Shown: positions 3,544-49,306, counted from the stretch's first letter. The stretch: DNA of 64,000 bases from Pseudoruminococcus massiliensis (GCF_900291955.1 NZ_OLMR01000002.1:310001-374000), one strand, 5' to 3'. Notes: generated by a model from the sequence alone, not told the origin. Made by a program: numbers and translations.

Positions 3544-4650
3544 TTAATCTTCGCCACCATTTATTTCATTGAGGTCAAGGTCGTAGGTTGTTACTGTATC
3601 CCAATCTCTACGAATAACAATTTCGGCTGTGAGGTCGGTATTATTATACAAGATTGACCATTGAGTGTTGCTGGTTATATCATCTTTGCTTGGTTTTTGT
3701 GATGCGGCCTTAAGTGCGTCCCACGCAACTTTGTTTGTGATTTTGCCCTCATTTTTGTTGAAAATTTCTTCCATAGCATCATATCTTTCCTTGCCATGAC
3801 CGTAATTTTCGTTGTGTTGATTTGGCTTTACCTTATCCTTATACATTTCAAAGAAGTTTGTTACAGCACGAGCAGGTGTTGCAACAAGCTTTCTTTCGCT
3901 ATCAAGGCTATACTCGATTACTCTTCCGTCACCGCTTGAGTCTGTTATATAAAAATGATAATCTCGACCACTACTTGCCATCATATCATAGTTTTTTAGA
4001 AGTTCGACAGCTTCCTCAGTAGATGCGGCTTTATCAAGCACTAATCTTATGGCTAAGGTTGTAGCAATGGTTGGTTTACCAGTATTTTGCTTGGTCGGTT
4101 CGCTATCGAGAGTAAGAACAGCGATAGATACACCTTTTTCATTCATTCCGTCTAAGCATACAAATGGTGCGGTAAGGCAGGCAAGTCGGGATTTGAGGCT
4201 TGCATCAGCAGTATTTGCAGAAATATTATCAAGAGCAGCAAAGGCGACTGACTTATATCCATCTTTTGGAGTTGAATAAACAAGCATTGCTGAACTATCA
4301 TTTTTGAAATCGTAATTTCTGCCCATAAGGTTATTATTGTCGGTATCCTTAACGCTGAAAGCACTGCAACCAAAATCGGGAACTTCAATATGTACTGGCA
4401 AAAGTGGCAAAGCTTCTTTTGTTACAGCGTCAACAAAGGACTGATTATCAGTTATACCATAATTTATGATGTTTTCAATACTGTAATCATATTTAATATC
4501 CATACGGTAGAGGTTATATTCATCATATGCTGTGATTTTTTGAATAGTTGCCGATGTTTGGAATCTTGTGAAATAGATAGTTGTAAAAACAATAGCAACT
4601 ACAACTATAAGTGCAGCTAAAATAAGGAGCGTCCTTTTTAATATTTTCAT
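3544..4650 (-). CDS. Ntn-hydrolase of the choloylglycine/acyltransferase superfamily, membrane-anchored
   Basis: The 368-residue protein starts with an uncleaved-looking signal anchor (residues 5-27). A linear amide C-N hydrolase domain follows, with the candidate catalytic nucleophile Cys95 in DFGCSAFS and then GRNYDF at about 110-115. This resembles the choloylglycine hydrolase/penicillin acylase-type Ntn family. The Cys is internal to the encoded chain, so either the protein needs processing to expose it or the enzyme departs from the classic N-terminal mechanism. The start at 4650 is set by GGAGGAAA; a longer frame would begin inside the upstream TetR gene. It directly follows that regulator and is probably co-transcribed. 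Substrate is unknown. Confidence 0.75.
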   Translation of the reverse strand: MKILKRTLLILAALIVVVAIVFTTIYFTRFQTSATIQKITAYDEYNLYRMDIKYDYSIENIINYGITDNQSFVDAVTKEALPLLPVHIEVPDFGCSAFSVKDTDNNNLMGRNYDFKNDSSAMLVYSTPKDGYKSVAFAALDNISANTADASLKSRLACLTAPFVCLDGMNEKGVSIAVLTLDSEPTKQNTGKPTIATTLAIRLVLDKAASTEEAVELLKNYDMMASSGRDYHFYITDSSGDGRVIEYSLDSERKLVATPARAVTNFFEMYKDKVKPNQHNENYGHGKERYDAMEEIFNKNEGKITNKVAWDALKAASQKPSKDDITSNTQWSILYNNTDLTAEIVIRRDWDTVTTYDLDLNEINGGED

Positions 4651-4651
4651 C

Positions 4652-5347
4652 TTATTTCCTCCATTCAGTATTAAAAGTGAAATCAAATTTCATTGCTAAT
4701 GCAATAAAAAGCTTTTGCATTACTTGATTGGCTATATGGCGAATATCAAGGCTTGATATATAGCTAAGGATTTGTTGCTGTTCATCATCAGGAACAGCAT
4801 AGACAGTCATACTCATAGCAAGAAAGCGTTGAATCTTTTTTTCGAGTGTGAAATATTTATCGCAATGCTTTGCCATATATCCACACATAATTCCTGATGA
4901 GCCAATTTCAAGCTCATAAAAATCGCTTTCTTCGTAGTCTGGAAGATAAGTGCCAAATATTTTATGCAATTCAGTAGATGTATGTTGATGAATATATTCT
5001 ATGGTCTGACTATTTGAATATGCTTCTATATAAATATCACGAAGGTTTTCGTTTAATTCTGCTAAGGCAATTTGAATAGATGTTTCTACGGCGTATATAA
5101 GTACAGGATTTGAGGTTTTGGCTATTGTTCTTGCCATACCGAATTGATTTTCAAACATAAATTCAACTAAATCCATAAGTACACCGTCTTTTGTGTGAAA
5201 AATATTTTGAAATGTACTGCTTGTAACATCGGCTTCTCTTAATATTTCTGCTAATGTGGTATTATGATAACCTTTCTCTATGAAAAGCTTTACACAAGCG
5301 GATAGTATTCGTCTTTTTGAGTCTTCCTTATCATATCTTCGAGCCAT
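4652..5347 (-). CDS. TetR/AcrR-family transcriptional regulator
   Basis: The 231-residue protein has an N-terminal TetR helix-turn-helix. RRILSACVKLFIEKGYHNTTLAEILREADVTSSTFQNIF is split here as RRILSACVKLFIEKGYHNTT plus the recognition helix around residues 30-50. A variable ligand-binding domain follows. I start it at the ATG at 5347, because the longer frame would begin inside a 26-bp palindrome that overlaps the promoter. The Ntn-hydrolase gene begins one base past its stop codon. Autoregulation through that palindrome is inferred from position. Confidence 0.85.
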   Translation of the reverse strand: MARRYDKEDSKRRILSACVKLFIEKGYHNTTLAEILREADVTSSTFQNIFHTKDGVLMDLVEFMFENQFGMARTIAKTSNPVLIYAVETSIQIALAELNENLRDIYIEAYSNSQTIEYIHQHTSTELHKIFGTYLPDYEESDFYELEIGSSGIMCGYMAKHCDKYFTLEKKIQRFLAMSMTVYAVPDDEQQQILSYISSLDIRHIANQVMQKLFIALAMKFDFTFNTEWRK

Positions 5348-5368: not shown

Positions 5369-5394
5369 TATAATTGGTTTATAAACCAATTATA
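5369..5394 (-). promoter_or_regulatory. 26-bp palindromic operator over the tetR promoter
   Basis: A perfect palindrome centred between 5381 and 5382 (half-site AATTGGTTTA) covers a minus-strand TATAAT -10 at 5389-5394. A plausible TTGCGA -35 lies 18 bp further upstream at 5413-5418. It is 21 bp upstream of the TetR start codon. This is the expected layout for an autorepressing TetR protein. Confidence 0.75.
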
Positions 5395-5506: not shown

Positions 5507-5539
5507 CTTAAAGTAAATTTAAGGCAGGACAATTATTAT
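5507..5539 (+). promoter_or_regulatory. putative activator site and -10 of the VTC operon
   Basis: A perfect inverted repeat CTTAAA-N5-TTTAAG (5507-5523) occupies the place where a -35 should be relative to a TATTAT at 5534-5539. No acceptable -35 is present, which suggests an activator-dependent promoter. The regulator is not identifiable here. Confidence 0.4.
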
Positions 5540-5582
5540 ATAGACATAGAAAACAAACCAACCTATTAGGAGATGAGATATT

Positions 5583-6320
5583 ATGAGCCAATTCCAAAGT
5601 ATCTTTAAAAGATATGAGAAAAAATATATTCTCACATCTCGGCAAAAACAAAAAATCCTTGAAACTGCAAAGCTGTATCTCGCAAAGGATAAATATTTTC
5701 ATAGCACTATTTGCAGTATATATTATGATACCCCGTCAAGATTAATGATTCGCAACTCTATTGAAAAGCCTATATATAAAGAAAAATTAAGACTTCGCAG
5801 TTATGGTACACCAAGTGCTGATGATAAGGTTTTCATAGAGCTAAAGAAAAAATATCGTGGTGTAGTTTATAAACGCCGTACAGCTATGACACTTCGTGAG
5901 GCGGAAATGTTTCTTTCTGGTAAGCTTTTGCCGAAAACACAGATTGAAAAAGAGCTTGCATGGGCATTGAAATATTACGAAGGCATAGAACCAGCAATGT
6001 TTGTAAGCTATGAGAGGGATTCTTATTGCGGTATTCAAGATTCAACCTTGAGAATTACCTTTGATAGTAACCCACTTATCAGAGAAGAAAAGCTTTCATT
6101 AGCTGACGGAATATGGGGAGAAACAATTCTTCAGGACGGGCTTTATATTATGGAAGTTAAAACACCATATGCAATGCCACTTTGGCTTGCAGATGAGTTA
6201 GATAGATTAAAAATTTTTCCGTCGTCATTTTCTAAGTATGGTACGGGATACATAAATTCATTGAAAAAACAAAATACATCTGAACTTGAAAAGGTTCAAG
6301 AAATTAAAAAATTAGCATAA
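5583..6320 (+). CDS. VTC-domain polyphosphate polymerase-like protein
   Basis: The 245-residue soluble protein is a stand-alone VTC domain, the catalytic tunnel fold of eukaryotic VTC4 that makes polyphosphate from ATP. The basic and acidic strands expected to line the tunnel are visible: FKRYEKKYIL near the start, YKEKLRLRSYG (about 62-72), FIELKKKYRGVVYKRR (about 82-97), LRITFD (about 150), IMEVK (about 185) and FSKYGTGY near the C-terminus. It opens a three-gene operon with a DUF4956 membrane protein 12 bp downstream. Bacterial stand-alone VTC proteins are mostly untested, so polymer synthesis is a family-level inference. Confidence 0.85.
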   Translation: MSQFQSIFKRYEKKYILTSRQKQKILETAKLYLAKDKYFHSTICSIYYDTPSRLMIRNSIEKPIYKEKLRLRSYGTPSADDKVFIELKKKYRGVVYKRRTAMTLREAEMFLSGKLLPKTQIEKELAWALKYYEGIEPAMFVSYERDSYCGIQDSTLRITFDSNPLIREEKLSLADGIWGETILQDGLYIMEVKTPYAMPLWLADELDRLKIFPSSFSKYGTGYINSLKKQNTSELEKVQEIKKLA

Positions 6321-6332
6321 GGAGAGATTATA

Positions 6333-7016
6333 ATGGATATTTTTAACAGCGTATTATCAAATCAGTCAACAGCAAGTTTTACAGAGGGTTTATTCTTCCT
6401 TTGTATGGGTGCATCAATAGCTTTTGGATTGATTATTGCATTTGTTTATTCCTTCAGAAATTCAACTTCAAAAAGCTTTGTTATGACGCTTGCTCTGCTT
6501 CCTGCAATCGTACAAGTAGTTATAATGCTTGTGAATGGCAGTATCGGTGCGGGAATTGCAGTAATGGGAGCTTTCAATTTGGTTCGTTTCCGTTCTGTGC
6601 CAGGAAGTGCAAAGGAAATTTGCAGTATATTCTTAGCAATGGCAGTAGGACTTGCAACAGGTATGGGTTATCTTCTCCTTGCAGGAATTTTGGTTGTTGT
6701 TATTTGTACAATTCAGCTTATCTTTAGCTTTATCAAAATCGGTGATAAGACTTCTGTTAAGAAGGAGCTTAGAATTACTATTCCTGAAAGCTTAGATTAT
6801 ACAGGCGTTTTTGATGAGCTTTTTGAGCAGTATACAAAGTCAAATGAGCTTGTAGAAGTAAAGACTGCAAATATGGGAAGCCTTTATAAGCTTAGATACA
6901 TAGTTATACTTAAAGAGCAGAGCCAAGAAAAGCAATTTATAGATGACCTTCGCTGCAGAAATGGTAATCTTGAAATCTCTTGTTGCAGAGCGGCTTTTAA
7001 TCAAGAAACATTATAA
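6333..7016 (+). CDS. DUF4956 membrane protein
   Basis: The 227-residue protein has about four transmembrane helices in residues 15-135. A conserved short segment GAFNLVRFRSVPGSAKEI links the helices and is diagnostic for DUF4956. A cytosolic C-terminal domain of about 90 residues follows. It is translated from AAGGAGA directly after the VTC gene. The family recurs beside VTC-domain proteins and surface beta-helix or CotH-type proteins in Firmicutes, but its molecular role is not known to me. A partner or channel for the product of the VTC enzyme is a guess from context. Confidence 0.8.
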   Translation: MDIFNSVLSNQSTASFTEGLFFLCMGASIAFGLIIAFVYSFRNSTSKSFVMTLALLPAIVQVVIMLVNGSIGAGIAVMGAFNLVRFRSVPGSAKEICSIFLAMAVGLATGMGYLLLAGILVVVICTIQLIFSFIKIGDKTSVKKELRITIPESLDYTGVFDELFEQYTKSNELVEVKTANMGSLYKLRYIVILKEQSQEKQFIDDLRCRNGNLEISCCRAAFNQETL

Positions 7017-7041
7017 TTTATGATAAAGGAGATTGATTGAA

Positions 7042-9000
7042 ATGAAAGGTAAAAGAATTTTTGCGGTGTTAATGTCCGCACTTATTATAGTTTCAGCCTT
7101 TGCGGGCTGTTCAGGCGATTCGCCACAGACAACTTCTGTTACTTCTGACAGCAGTAAAGCTACCACAAGCTCAAGTAGTTCGGAATCGAGCAAGACAGTT
7201 AAAGCGGAATCTGTAAATGCAAACTTTACTGCTCGTGATATGGATGTTGGTTATGAAGAAACAGATGCAGTTAAAATTTCTTGTAGCGGAAGTGAATTTA
7301 GCATAAGTGGAAGTGGTGCAACGGCTAAAGACGGTGTGCTTACAATCAACAAGGAGGGTACATATGTACTGAGCGGTTCAATAGATGAGGGCAGAATAGT
7401 GGTAAATGTTACGGATAGTGAAAAGGTTCAGCTTGTTCTGAATGGCTTTACGATAAAATGCACAACACATTCACCGATATTTATAAAATCTGCGGATAAG
7501 GTTTTTATTACCCTCAAAGATGACACTAAAAATATTATAACAGACGGTACTTCTTATACAGACCTTGCAGACGATGAAAGCAATGTTGATGCAGCTATTT
7601 TCAGCAGAGCGGATATGACTATAAACGGCAGTGGTTCTCTGATCGTCAACGGAAATATGAAAAATGGTATCGTTTCAAAAGATGATTTGGTGATTACAGG
7701 CGGTACGATTACTGTTAATGCAAAAAATAATGGTATTTGCGGTAAGGACTGCGTTAAAATTGCGGACGGCAATATTACAATTAAGTCCGAGGGTGACGGT
7801 ATTAAATCTAACAATAGTGAGGATACTTCAAAGGGATATATTTATATCTGTGGTGGAAAAATCAACATAACCTCTACAACTGACGCTATTCAGGCAGAAA
7901 CGACGCTTACAATAGAAAAAGGCGAAATTAATCTTAAAACTGGTGGCGGAAGCGAAAATTCCTCAAAGACCTCTGAAGGTAAGGACAATCCTCAATGGGG
8001 TAAGTGGGGACAAGAGGATTCATCTACAACGGAAGAAGATACTGCAAGTGCAAAGGGTCTTAAAGCAGGCGGTGATATAAAAATCAGCAATGCAACTATT
8101 GCCGCAGATACCTCGGACGATTCCATTCACTCAAATTCTAATGTTACCATAGAGAGCGGAACATTTAATCTTAAATCTGGTGATGACGGCATACACGCTG
8201 ATACCTCAACAGTTATTAACAACGGTAATATTGTTATAGAGAAAAGCTATGAAGGCATTGAGGGTTCTAATGTAACTATAAATGGCGGTACAATAGAACT
8301 TACTGCAAGCGATGACGGAATAAATTCCGCAGGTGGCAGTGACAGCTCTTCTATGGGCGGAAGAATGGGACAAAACAGCTTTACCGAAAATTCTGATATT
8401 TATATAAAGATTACAGGCGGTAAGGTTACAGTTGATGCCTCTGGCGACGGGCTTGATTCTAACAGCAATCTCATAATTGAGGGCGGTGAAATTTATGTAA
8501 ACGGTCCTACAAATGACGGTAACGGTGCTTTGGATTATGACGGCACAGCAACTATCAGCGGTGGAACTTTCGTTGCAGTTGGTAGTTCAGGAATGGTACA
8601 GGGTTTCTCAGATAGCTCAACTCAATGCTCAATTCTGTATAATCTTTCAAGTAGCCATTCTACTGATGAAAAGATTACGCTTGCTGATTCAAGCGGAAAT
8701 GAGATTATTTCTTATACATCAACAAAGCAGTTTAGCTCTGTTGTGATAAGCTCAGCTAAGATTACAAAGAGCGGAGCATACAAGCTTACTGTTGGTAGTG
8801 AAAGCTATGATATAGAAATGAGTTCGACAGTATATTCTAATGGCTCAAATGGCTTCGGCGGTGGCGGAATGGGTGGTAATAAGCCTGACGGCTTTGGTAG
8901 AGGCAACAATGGCAAGCCTCCAAAAATGCCAAATGGCGAAAATTCGGGAATGACACCACCTGATATGCCAAATGAAGAAATTTCAAGCACAAATACTTAA
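7042..9000 (+). CDS. beta-helix carbohydrate-binding surface lipoprotein (Cthe_2159-type)
   Basis: The 652-residue lipoprotein has a type II signal peptide (lipobox AFAGC, Cys23) and a Ser/Thr linker. Long runs of short parallel beta-helix coils follow (recurring INGGTI, SGDGL/SDDGI, GGDIKISNATI motifs). The C-terminal tail is rich in Gly, Pro and Asn. The fold and repeats match the Cthe_2159 family, whose founding member binds cellulose and polygalacturonate. The start at 7042 uses AAAGGAG at 7025-7031; a TTG at 7033 is too close. It is the last gene of the VTC operon, and a hairpin terminator lies 260 bp on inside a repeat element. Confidence 0.8.
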   Translation: MKGKRIFAVLMSALIIVSAFAGCSGDSPQTTSVTSDSSKATTSSSSSESSKTVKAESVNANFTARDMDVGYEETDAVKISCSGSEFSISGSGATAKDGVLTINKEGTYVLSGSIDEGRIVVNVTDSEKVQLVLNGFTIKCTTHSPIFIKSADKVFITLKDDTKNIITDGTSYTDLADDESNVDAAIFSRADMTINGSGSLIVNGNMKNGIVSKDDLVITGGTITVNAKNNGICGKDCVKIADGNITIKSEGDGIKSNNSEDTSKGYIYICGGKINITSTTDAIQAETTLTIEKGEINLKTGGGSENSSKTSEGKDNPQWGKWGQEDSSTTEEDTASAKGLKAGGDIKISNATIAADTSDDSIHSNSNVTIESGTFNLKSGDDGIHADTSTVINNGNIVIEKSYEGIEGSNVTINGGTIELTASDDGINSAGGSDSSSMGGRMGQNSFTENSDIYIKITGGKVTVDASGDGLDSNSNLIIEGGEIYVNGPTNDGNGALDYDGTATISGGTFVAVGSSGMVQGFSDSSTQCSILYNLSSSHSTDEKITLADSSGNEIISYTSTKQFSSVVISSAKITKSGAYKLTVGSESYDIEMSSTVYSNGSNGFGGGGMGGNKPDGFGRGNNGKPPKMPNGENSGMTPPDMPNEEISSTNT

Positions 9001-9020: not shown

Positions 9021-9461
9021 TAAGCTAATGCACTTACCCAAGAAACTCAAAAGTTTCGCTTGAGCCTTTTTAAAGGCTCACGGTTTCCAAAGATAGTCAC
9101 CTATGGCAGAGCCTCGGGTAGTTTATTGGTAATTTCTTTATCCGTGGCAATAAACTGCTCTTGTAGATGTCGAGGTTTTGCTTGCAAAACCGATTACGCG
9201 TCTTGGGGGCGGCGGCTCGCCGTTTAAGGGCGAAGCCCTTAACATCTCTTACTTCCTGAAGGGGGCGGACAAAGTCCGCCCCCTTTTTACTAATGTTGAT
9301 AACAAAAAAATAAGCGGCGGACTATGTCCGCCGCTTAGAGAGCAAAGAATGTTAAGGGCGTTGCCCTTAAAACCCATGAGGGACTCCGTCCCTCAACCCT
9401 GCAAGCTTTTGAAAAAGCTTGAGCAAAACTTTTAATTGTCTTTGGAAAGTGTGTTAGCTAA
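9021..9461. repeat. palindrome-mosaic intergenic element E1
   Basis: The left end begins with a TTAAGCTAATGCAC tip and reads AAAAGTTTCGCTTGAGCC. The right end carries the inverse order GCTTGAGCAAAACTTTTAAT and closes on TTAGCTAA just before the ABC gene stop. Internal cassettes are perfect hairpins, including GCGGAC/GTCCGC, TTAAGGGC/GCCCTTAA and GAGGGAC/GTCCCTC. It carries no credible gene. It is the fullest of the copies in this window. Confidence 0.8.
9261..9288 (+). terminator. strong hairpin with T-run inside element E1
   Basis: The stem GGGGGCGGAC/GTCCGCCCCC has a 3-nt loop (9261-9283) and is followed by TTTTT. It can terminate the VTC operon transcript that enters from the left. Confidence 0.7.
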
Positions 9462-48908: not shown

Positions 48909-49306
48909 ATTAGCTAATGCACTTCTCTAAGAAAATTAAAAGTTTTGCTCAAGCTTTTTCAAAAGCTTGCGGTTTCCAAAGGCAGAGCCTTTGGTGGGTT
49001 TTAAGGGCAACGCCCTTAACATCTCTTGCCCCCAAAGGGCGGACAAAGTCCGCCCTTGTTGACTAATGTCAGCAACGCAAGAAAATTAAGCGACGGACTT
49101 TGTCCGCCCTTACTGACTAATGTTGCTACCAAAAGAGAATGAATCGGCGGATAAAATCCGCCGATTTTAAGAAAAAATAAATGTTGGGCAAAGCCCAAAG
49201 GTGTTTCGCTCTCTGCGGAGAGCGACAAGGGCGTTGCCCTTGTCCTACGAGCCTTTAAAAAGGCTCGAGCGAAACTTTGAGTGTCTAAGAAAAGTATGTC
49301 AGCTAA
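48909..49306. repeat. palindrome-mosaic element E10
   Basis: This is a full copy with both tips. The left is TTAGCTAATGCACTT...AATTAAAAGTTTTGCTC; the right is GAGCGAAACTTTGAGTGTC...CAGCTAA. Internal cassettes are AAGCTTTTTCAAAAGCTT, CCAAAGGCAGAGCCTTTGG, TTAAGGGCAACGCCCTTAA, GGGCGGACAAAGTCCGCCC, AATCGGCGGAT/ATCCGCCGATT and CGCTCTCTGCGGAGAGCG. Confidence 0.85.

Follow-up and report, generated by a model that had tools for sequence, protein, structure and literature searches.

What does a predicted polyphosphate polymerase of the VTC type have in common with a membrane protein of family DUF4956 and an exported beta-helix lipoprotein, whose genes stand together in Pseudoruminococcus massiliensis? 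The locus is contained in a stretch of 64,000 nucleotides (the window), which is part of one contig (contig C12) of a 2.43-Mb genome. The window proteins were searched against Pfam profiles, and comparisons with the PDB, with structural models and with a survey of genomes were made besides. The best reading, to which we give about an even chance, is that the locus encodes a membrane-coupled polyphosphate polymerase together with the exported surface client that it serves. Three genes are found on the + strand, in the following order:

5583..6320, + strand: VTC domain protein of 245 amino acids, predicted cytosolic polyphosphate polymerase with a triphosphate tunnel fold (PF09359, E 4.1e-37)
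6333..7016, + strand: DUF4956 membrane protein of 227 amino acids (PF16316, E 5.8e-15)
7042..9000, + strand: Cthe_2159-type beta-helix lipoprotein of about 652 amino acids (PF14262, E 8.5e-101)

The intergenic gaps are 12 and 25 nt and each gene is preceded by a ribosome-binding site; the spacing suggests that the three genes are co-transcribed as one operon. Strand, ribosome-binding sites, gaps and Pfam matches all agree with a previous sequence-only reading of this DNA, which had placed a VTC, a DUF4956 and a beta-helix lipoprotein gene here. The genome-wide profile search found a single VTC, a single DUF4956 and a single Cthe_2159 gene, and no match to CotH in the whole host genome.

The VTC-DUF4956 pair and the predicted enzyme

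The survey contains 196 Clostridia genomes, in which families were counted above the profile cut-off. VTC is present in 97 of them and DUF4956 in 92, and all 92 are common to both (Fisher p 1.6e-50); the five VTC genomes without DUF4956 show partial or contig-edge VTC matches or are incomplete assemblies. At the level of the locus, 111 VTC loci, each in a region of at most 16 kb, were taken together with the window (112 loci in total), and in 108 of these DUF4956 is on the same strand as VTC and its direct or near neighbour. Three of the four exceptional loci are at contig ends or have a truncated VTC, and in the remaining one, L093, DUF4956 is on another contig. A second set contains 80 loci from named genomes and is biased to the VTC clade of the window, so that its partner counts are not frequencies; DUF4956 is beside VTC in 80/80. 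Both families also match in the distant controls Bacteroides ihuae, Corynebacterium glutamicum and Methanosarcina acetivorans. VTC and DUF4956 are, then, almost inseparable, and the recurrence of their association with an exported protein, stated in the sequence-only reading, is far stronger than was claimed there. DUF4956 is seldom named in the literature searched, and no paper combining the terms 'VTC domain' and 'DUF4956' was found in it. CotH-VTC-DUF4956 clusters beside Pel loci are already known (PMC7112168), as is a similar run in NELoc-2 (PMC2879425). So far as the literature searched shows, the near-absolute pairing is new, and so are the finding that CotH and Cthe_2159 replace each other in a single slot, the genome-wide association of these two families with the pair, and the predicted resemblance of DUF4956 to MgtC in layout.

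The window VTC protein matches PF09359 with 128 bits (cut-off 23) and covers profile positions 1-231 of 235. The domain fills nearly all of the 245 amino acids, and no other Pfam match, and no SPX domain, was found in the protein. Its nearest named relatives belong to an uncultured Ruminococcus and other Clostridia. By plain sequence it scarcely resembles yeast Vtc4 (E 0.13), and a profile made from 31 bacterial VTC relatives finds Vtc4 at E 7.8e-25. The structure model, with a predicted local distance difference test score (pLDDT) of 93.7, matches Vtc4 (3g3r) at E 6.6e-13 in Foldseek, and 3g3r is also its best structural match (Z 19.6, 217 residues, 2.6 Å), non-VTC tunnel enzymes reaching Z 13.8 or below. 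Vtc4 numbering was obtained by converting positions of the alignment, and conservation was counted in 110 bacterial VTC sequences. Residues R10, K14, R70, R72, K88, K97, R145, R157, E191 and K193, equivalent to Vtc4 R196, K200, R264, R266, K281, K294, R361, R373, E426 and K428, respectively, are identical in 110/110, and S217 and K218, equivalent to S457 and K458, in 109/110. Changing R264, R266 and E426 inactivates the yeast VTC complex (PMC9911596), and the matching residues R70, R72 and E191 are among those identical in all sequences. The basic-tunnel motifs, which had been described as intact, are retained, each mapped Vtc4 residue being kept in at least 109 of the 110 relatives. Judged by fold and residues together, the window VTC is very probably active as a Vtc4-type enzyme, whose product, deduced from the same fold and active site, would be polyphosphate.

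An exported third gene of alternating families

The slot next to the pair contains CotH at 47 of the 112 loci, Cthe_2159 at 32 and both at none; in the named set, one locus of 80 (L213) shows both. A hydrophobic N-terminal segment is present in 31/31 Cthe_2159 and 44/45 CotH proteins at these loci, versus 6/112 VTC proteins. Across the genomes, CotH or Cthe_2159 is found anywhere in 93/97 of the VTC-positive and in 10/99 of the VTC-negative ones (p 1.2e-38), and the four VTC genomes with neither are incomplete or have fragment matches. The CotH-VTC and the Cthe_2159-VTC associations both survive within-family shuffling (p 0.0002 and 0.0003). Five genomes (G034, G059, G151, G207 and G216) carry different partners in separate cassettes, and the VTC tree shows at least 25 partner-label changes, versus 2 with a single origin per state and about 51 with shuffled labels, so the partner follows lineages yet is often exchanged. 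This exchange suggests a general system that ties phosphate polymers to the cell surface. The same 25 changes would also be seen if gene order were a habit, that is, if a mobile cassette of surface-related genes carried enzyme and exported protein without a direct functional link; some loci have no exported protein beside the pair, and in a congener, G197, the block immediately preceding the operon is unrelated to that of the window, as expected for a moved cassette. However, no exchange has separated VTC from DUF4956, the partners exchanged belong almost only to two families, and the genome-wide co-occurrence holds within families, and we consider a mere habit of gene order very unlikely.

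Loci without CotH or Cthe_2159 show at some places an exported metallo-beta-lactamase-fold lipoprotein (five in the survey), an S-layer protein or a glycosidase. The metallo-beta-lactamase-fold secreted lipoproteins, of about 285 amino acids, adjoin the pair at L070, L116, L150, L158 and L244, and are possibly a third kind of client.

In the window, the start of the third gene is likelier to be ATG 7042 than TTG 7033. The N-terminus of the product, MKGKRIFAVLMSALIIVSAFAGC, reads as a signal peptide with a lipobox, behind which there is a Ser/Thr-rich linker, and the C-terminus is Gly/Pro-rich. The protein matches PF14262 with 337 bits and the solved beta-helix structures 4peu and 4phb (E 3.7e-40 for 4peu, 212 residues), and the previous description of an exported beta-helix lipoprotein holds. 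It belongs to the same beta-helix family as Cthe_2159 of Clostridium thermocellum (4peu, 4phb) and differs from it in that it is a lipoprotein whose gene shares an operon with that of a predicted polymerase. C. thermocellum Cthe_2159 binds cellulose and polygalacturonic acid (PMC6712302); since it binds acidic sugars, a polyanion affinity of the window lipoprotein is plausible by analogy. In anaerobic gut fungi, Cthe_2159 and CotH domains are among the families that distinguish them from other chytrids (PMC6712302), and these are also the families that alternate in the bacterial cassette.

CotH, poly-P polymerase, DUF4956 and DUF4832 are accessory genes of Gram-positive Pel loci, the first three having been reported in streptococci, clostridia and bifidobacteria (PMC7112168). 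The window resembles this group in that the neighbour of a VTC-DUF4956 pair encodes a surface-related protein, and differs from it in that this third gene is Cthe_2159 and CotH is absent from the genome; no pelDEADAFG operon or Pel genes are next to the window operon. NELoc-2 of C. perfringens contains a VTC / VTC / CotH cluster (PMC2879425), which shares with the window the gene order VTC, small membrane protein, exported family; unlike the window, its third gene is CotH, followed by HEAT-repeat and glycosyltransferase genes. Beside the VTC genes of NELoc-2, CP4_0461 and CP4_0464 encode membrane-located proteins of 226 and 222 amino acids annotated as tubulin/FtsZ GTPases (PMC2879425), which, judged by size and place, are probably misannotated DUF4956 proteins. 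Surveyed CotH cassettes (L084, L108, L156 and relatives) are often extended by genes for a secreted protein with weak similarity to GH72, for a HEAT-repeat protein and for a glycosyltransferase of family 2; these extended cassettes look like a polysaccharide locus and resemble the NELoc-2 gene run.

Surroundings of this kind bear on the possibility that VTC moves ATP phosphate to a lipid carrier, a glycan or a client, giving a phospho-modified surface molecule and not free polyphosphate. The clusters adjoin Pel genes (PMC7112168), a glycosyltransferase recurs downstream of CotH, CotH itself phosphorylates surface proteins (PMC7821199), tunnel enzymes are chemically diverse, and bacterial VTC, unlike Vtc4, retains E12 of the ExExK motif. 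Such a transfer is nevertheless judged unlikely, given that every mapped Vtc4 tunnel residue is retained and that, among tunnel enzymes, Vtc4 is the closest to VTC in fold.

DUF4956 and a possible path to the cell surface

The DUF4956 protein matches PF16316 with 55.9 bits (cut-off 30.6). Its model (pLDDT 89.2) shows five membrane helices (residues 18-133) and a beta-alpha-beta ACT-like domain (143-219). Those helix ends that face the C-terminal domain carry basic residues; under the positive-inside rule, this domain would be in the cytosol. The protein also contains an RFR motif, in which R87 never varies and position 85 is occupied by R or K in 105/105 sequences, and which is presumed to lie where helix 3 ends on the cytosolic side. 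The C-terminal domain matches that of MgtC (2lqj) at Z 8.2, tied with many ACT/ferredoxin-like folds; the membrane half gave no informative match in the structural libraries, the C-terminal domain alone being effectively compared. With hhalign, DUF4956 and four MgtC proteins align at E 9.3e-5 (probability 59%); hmmscan of the window protein gives DUF4956 only, and the MgtC profile (PF02308) has no match anywhere in the host genome. In its predicted layout, with five membrane helices ahead of an ACT-like domain, and in a weak profile similarity, DUF4956 appears to resemble MgtC, but Pfam keeps the two apart, and their membrane halves are compared by predicted layout. An MgtC-like origin is likely, but not proven.

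The MgtC layout also accommodates a pair whose polyphosphate stays inside the cell, with DUF4956 as its regulator or anchor, in the way MgtC serves ATP metabolism, and with co-regulation as the one link to the exported protein. Ligand sensing is common among ACT domains, and VTC itself lacks an SPX sensor, so that control may come from the partner. Internal storage, however, can already be served by PPK1, here and in 37 of the 97 VTC genomes, a co-presence which argues that the product of VTC is not just stored phosphate, and VTC and two exported families are nearly equivalent in their occurrence (93/97 versus 10/99), which points outward; retention in the cell is regarded as rather unlikely. 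Even without export, this near-equivalence assigns DUF4956 to a system. VTC as a substitute for PPK was rejected, as PPK1 is present in the host and shows no depletion among VTC genomes (37 with PPK1, 31.7 expected; p 0.13).

If the pair is a membrane-coupled polymerase with a surface client, as we prefer, VTC would build polyphosphate from ATP on the cytosolic face of the membrane. DUF4956, its MgtC-like near-obligate partner, would dock VTC via its own cytosolic face and would either move the chain across the membrane or control VTC. The exported client encoded by the third gene would work with the product outside the cell: in the window the Cthe_2159 lipoprotein, which would be expected to bind the polyanion, possibly together with calcium, and in relatives the secreted kinase CotH. 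This scheme is compatible with the mechanism of the sequence-only reading, in which the making of a polyanion is coupled to the surface anchoring of a polysaccharide-binding protein. The eukaryotic VTC complex contains Vtc4 with Vtc1 and Vtc2/3, and couples cytosolic synthesis to translocation across the membrane (PMC9911596), which makes polyphosphate export through DUF4956 attractive by analogy. The window pair shows the same tunnel polymerase fold and active-site residues, and likewise pairs the enzyme with a membrane protein. It differs in having a polymerase without SPX and a co-encoded exported protein, and in its partner, which is the five-helix, ACT-like DUF4956 and not the three-helix Vtc1 type.

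Several observations weigh against a polymerase of this kind. DUF4956 belongs to a family other than Vtc1-type channels, and the Vtc1-type channel family (PF02656, DUF202) has no match in the whole host genome, so export by the pair rests on analogy. E12 is kept in 109/110 bacterial VTC sequences where Vtc4 has a threonine, and the metal chemistry of the bacterial enzyme may therefore differ. The PPK1 of the host means that polyphosphate can be made without the operon. The third slot is vacant or contains another gene at 33 of the 112 loci, some of them at contig ends. The surveyed genomes are related, and the within-family shuffling test covers 146 of the 196. Four VTC-negative genomes have an exported CotH; CotH is thus not strictly dependent on VTC, and the rule that exported CotH always needs VTC is ruled out.

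The most far-reaching form of the scheme regards VTC-DUF4956 as a bacterial polyphosphate synthase-exporter, the chain outside the cell being a calcium-binding scaffold for Cthe_2159 and a phosphate donor for CotH; we hold it to be distinctly unlikely. Secreted CotH kinases would, under this proposal, act where ATP is scarce. In vitro, CotH acts as a kinase with ATP, and where it would obtain ATP in the spore coat has been described as an unanswered question (PMC7821199); the four genomes with exported CotH and without VTC limit the idea of polyphosphate as donor. Should the pair make and export polyphosphate, it would be a second, membrane-coupled bacterial polyphosphate system besides PPK, surface polyphosphate roles in gut and rumen Clostridia would become directly testable, and the ATP source for CotH in the spore coat (PMC7821199) would be seen in another light.

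Promoter, regulation and neighbouring genes

Two elements are located upstream of VTC and one downstream of the lipoprotein gene:

5507..5523, no strand: inverted repeat CTTAAA-N5-TTTAAG (exact match), candidate operator in the place of a -35
5534..5539, + strand: candidate -10 TATTAT of the operon promoter (sequence inspection; kept in G197)
9260..9289, + strand: terminator-like hairpin GGGGGCGGAC-AAA-GTCCGCCCCC followed by TTTTT (sequence inspection)

A consensus scan found no sigma-70 pair on the + strand between the repeat and the VTC start, and it missed the candidate -10 because no -35 is present. The exact repeat and the absence of a -35 are as the sequence-only reading gave them. The 2.43-Mb genome contains one exact copy of the repeat and six of a reversed control pattern; the repeat is therefore no more frequent than by chance, and a role as a regulon site was rejected. 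G197 also has one copy in the same place, within an 83-bp block that is 93% identical to that of the window; similarity drops to 41% further upstream, and VTC third codon positions are 85% identical. The second congener, G196, is without it, so that the repeat is kept in one of two congeners, and it may be a dedicated operator. The earlier proposal that an activator may switch the operon is weakly supported, the repeat being a single-copy site that one of the two congeners retains. No RNA structure better than shuffles was found in the operon leader (z 1.0).

In the relatives, a two-component system adjoins the cassette at about a third of the loci. Histidine kinases occupy 71/399 places within two genes of the cassette versus 10/671 three to seven genes away, and response regulators 38/399 versus 8/671, which supports regulation of the cassette in general by an outside signal. 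A search for the cognate response regulator had been suggested; no two-component system is beside the operon in the window.

The neighbours of the operon encode RNase Y-like, C45-type hydrolase and TetR proteins and ABC exporters. The TetR-type regulator gene (4652-5347, - strand) is divergent from the operon, its true start being probably an ATG near 5347, and is followed by a choloylglycine-hydrolase/C45-type protein gene (3544-4683). A perfect palindrome, TTGGTTTATAAACCAA, is contained in the TetR gene leader at 5374-5389 and is likely the operator of that gene. TetR as regulator of the operon is not supported: the palindrome belongs to the leader of the TetR gene itself, and ahead of the operon in G197 this region is not conserved. 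A defence-system reading was also set aside, the only PADLOC match being a marginal one of DUF4956 to CARF_TM (E 0.0014), judged to be chance.

The hairpin at 9260..9289 is the probable end of the operon transcript, and belongs to a repeat element with another copy near 49038. Pairs of GC-rich hairpins (GGCGGACAAAGTCCGCC, TTAAGGGCGAAGCCCTTAA) in inverted arrangement are located at 9223-9371 and near 49038-49108; they look like a small repeat element, some copies of which could act as terminators.

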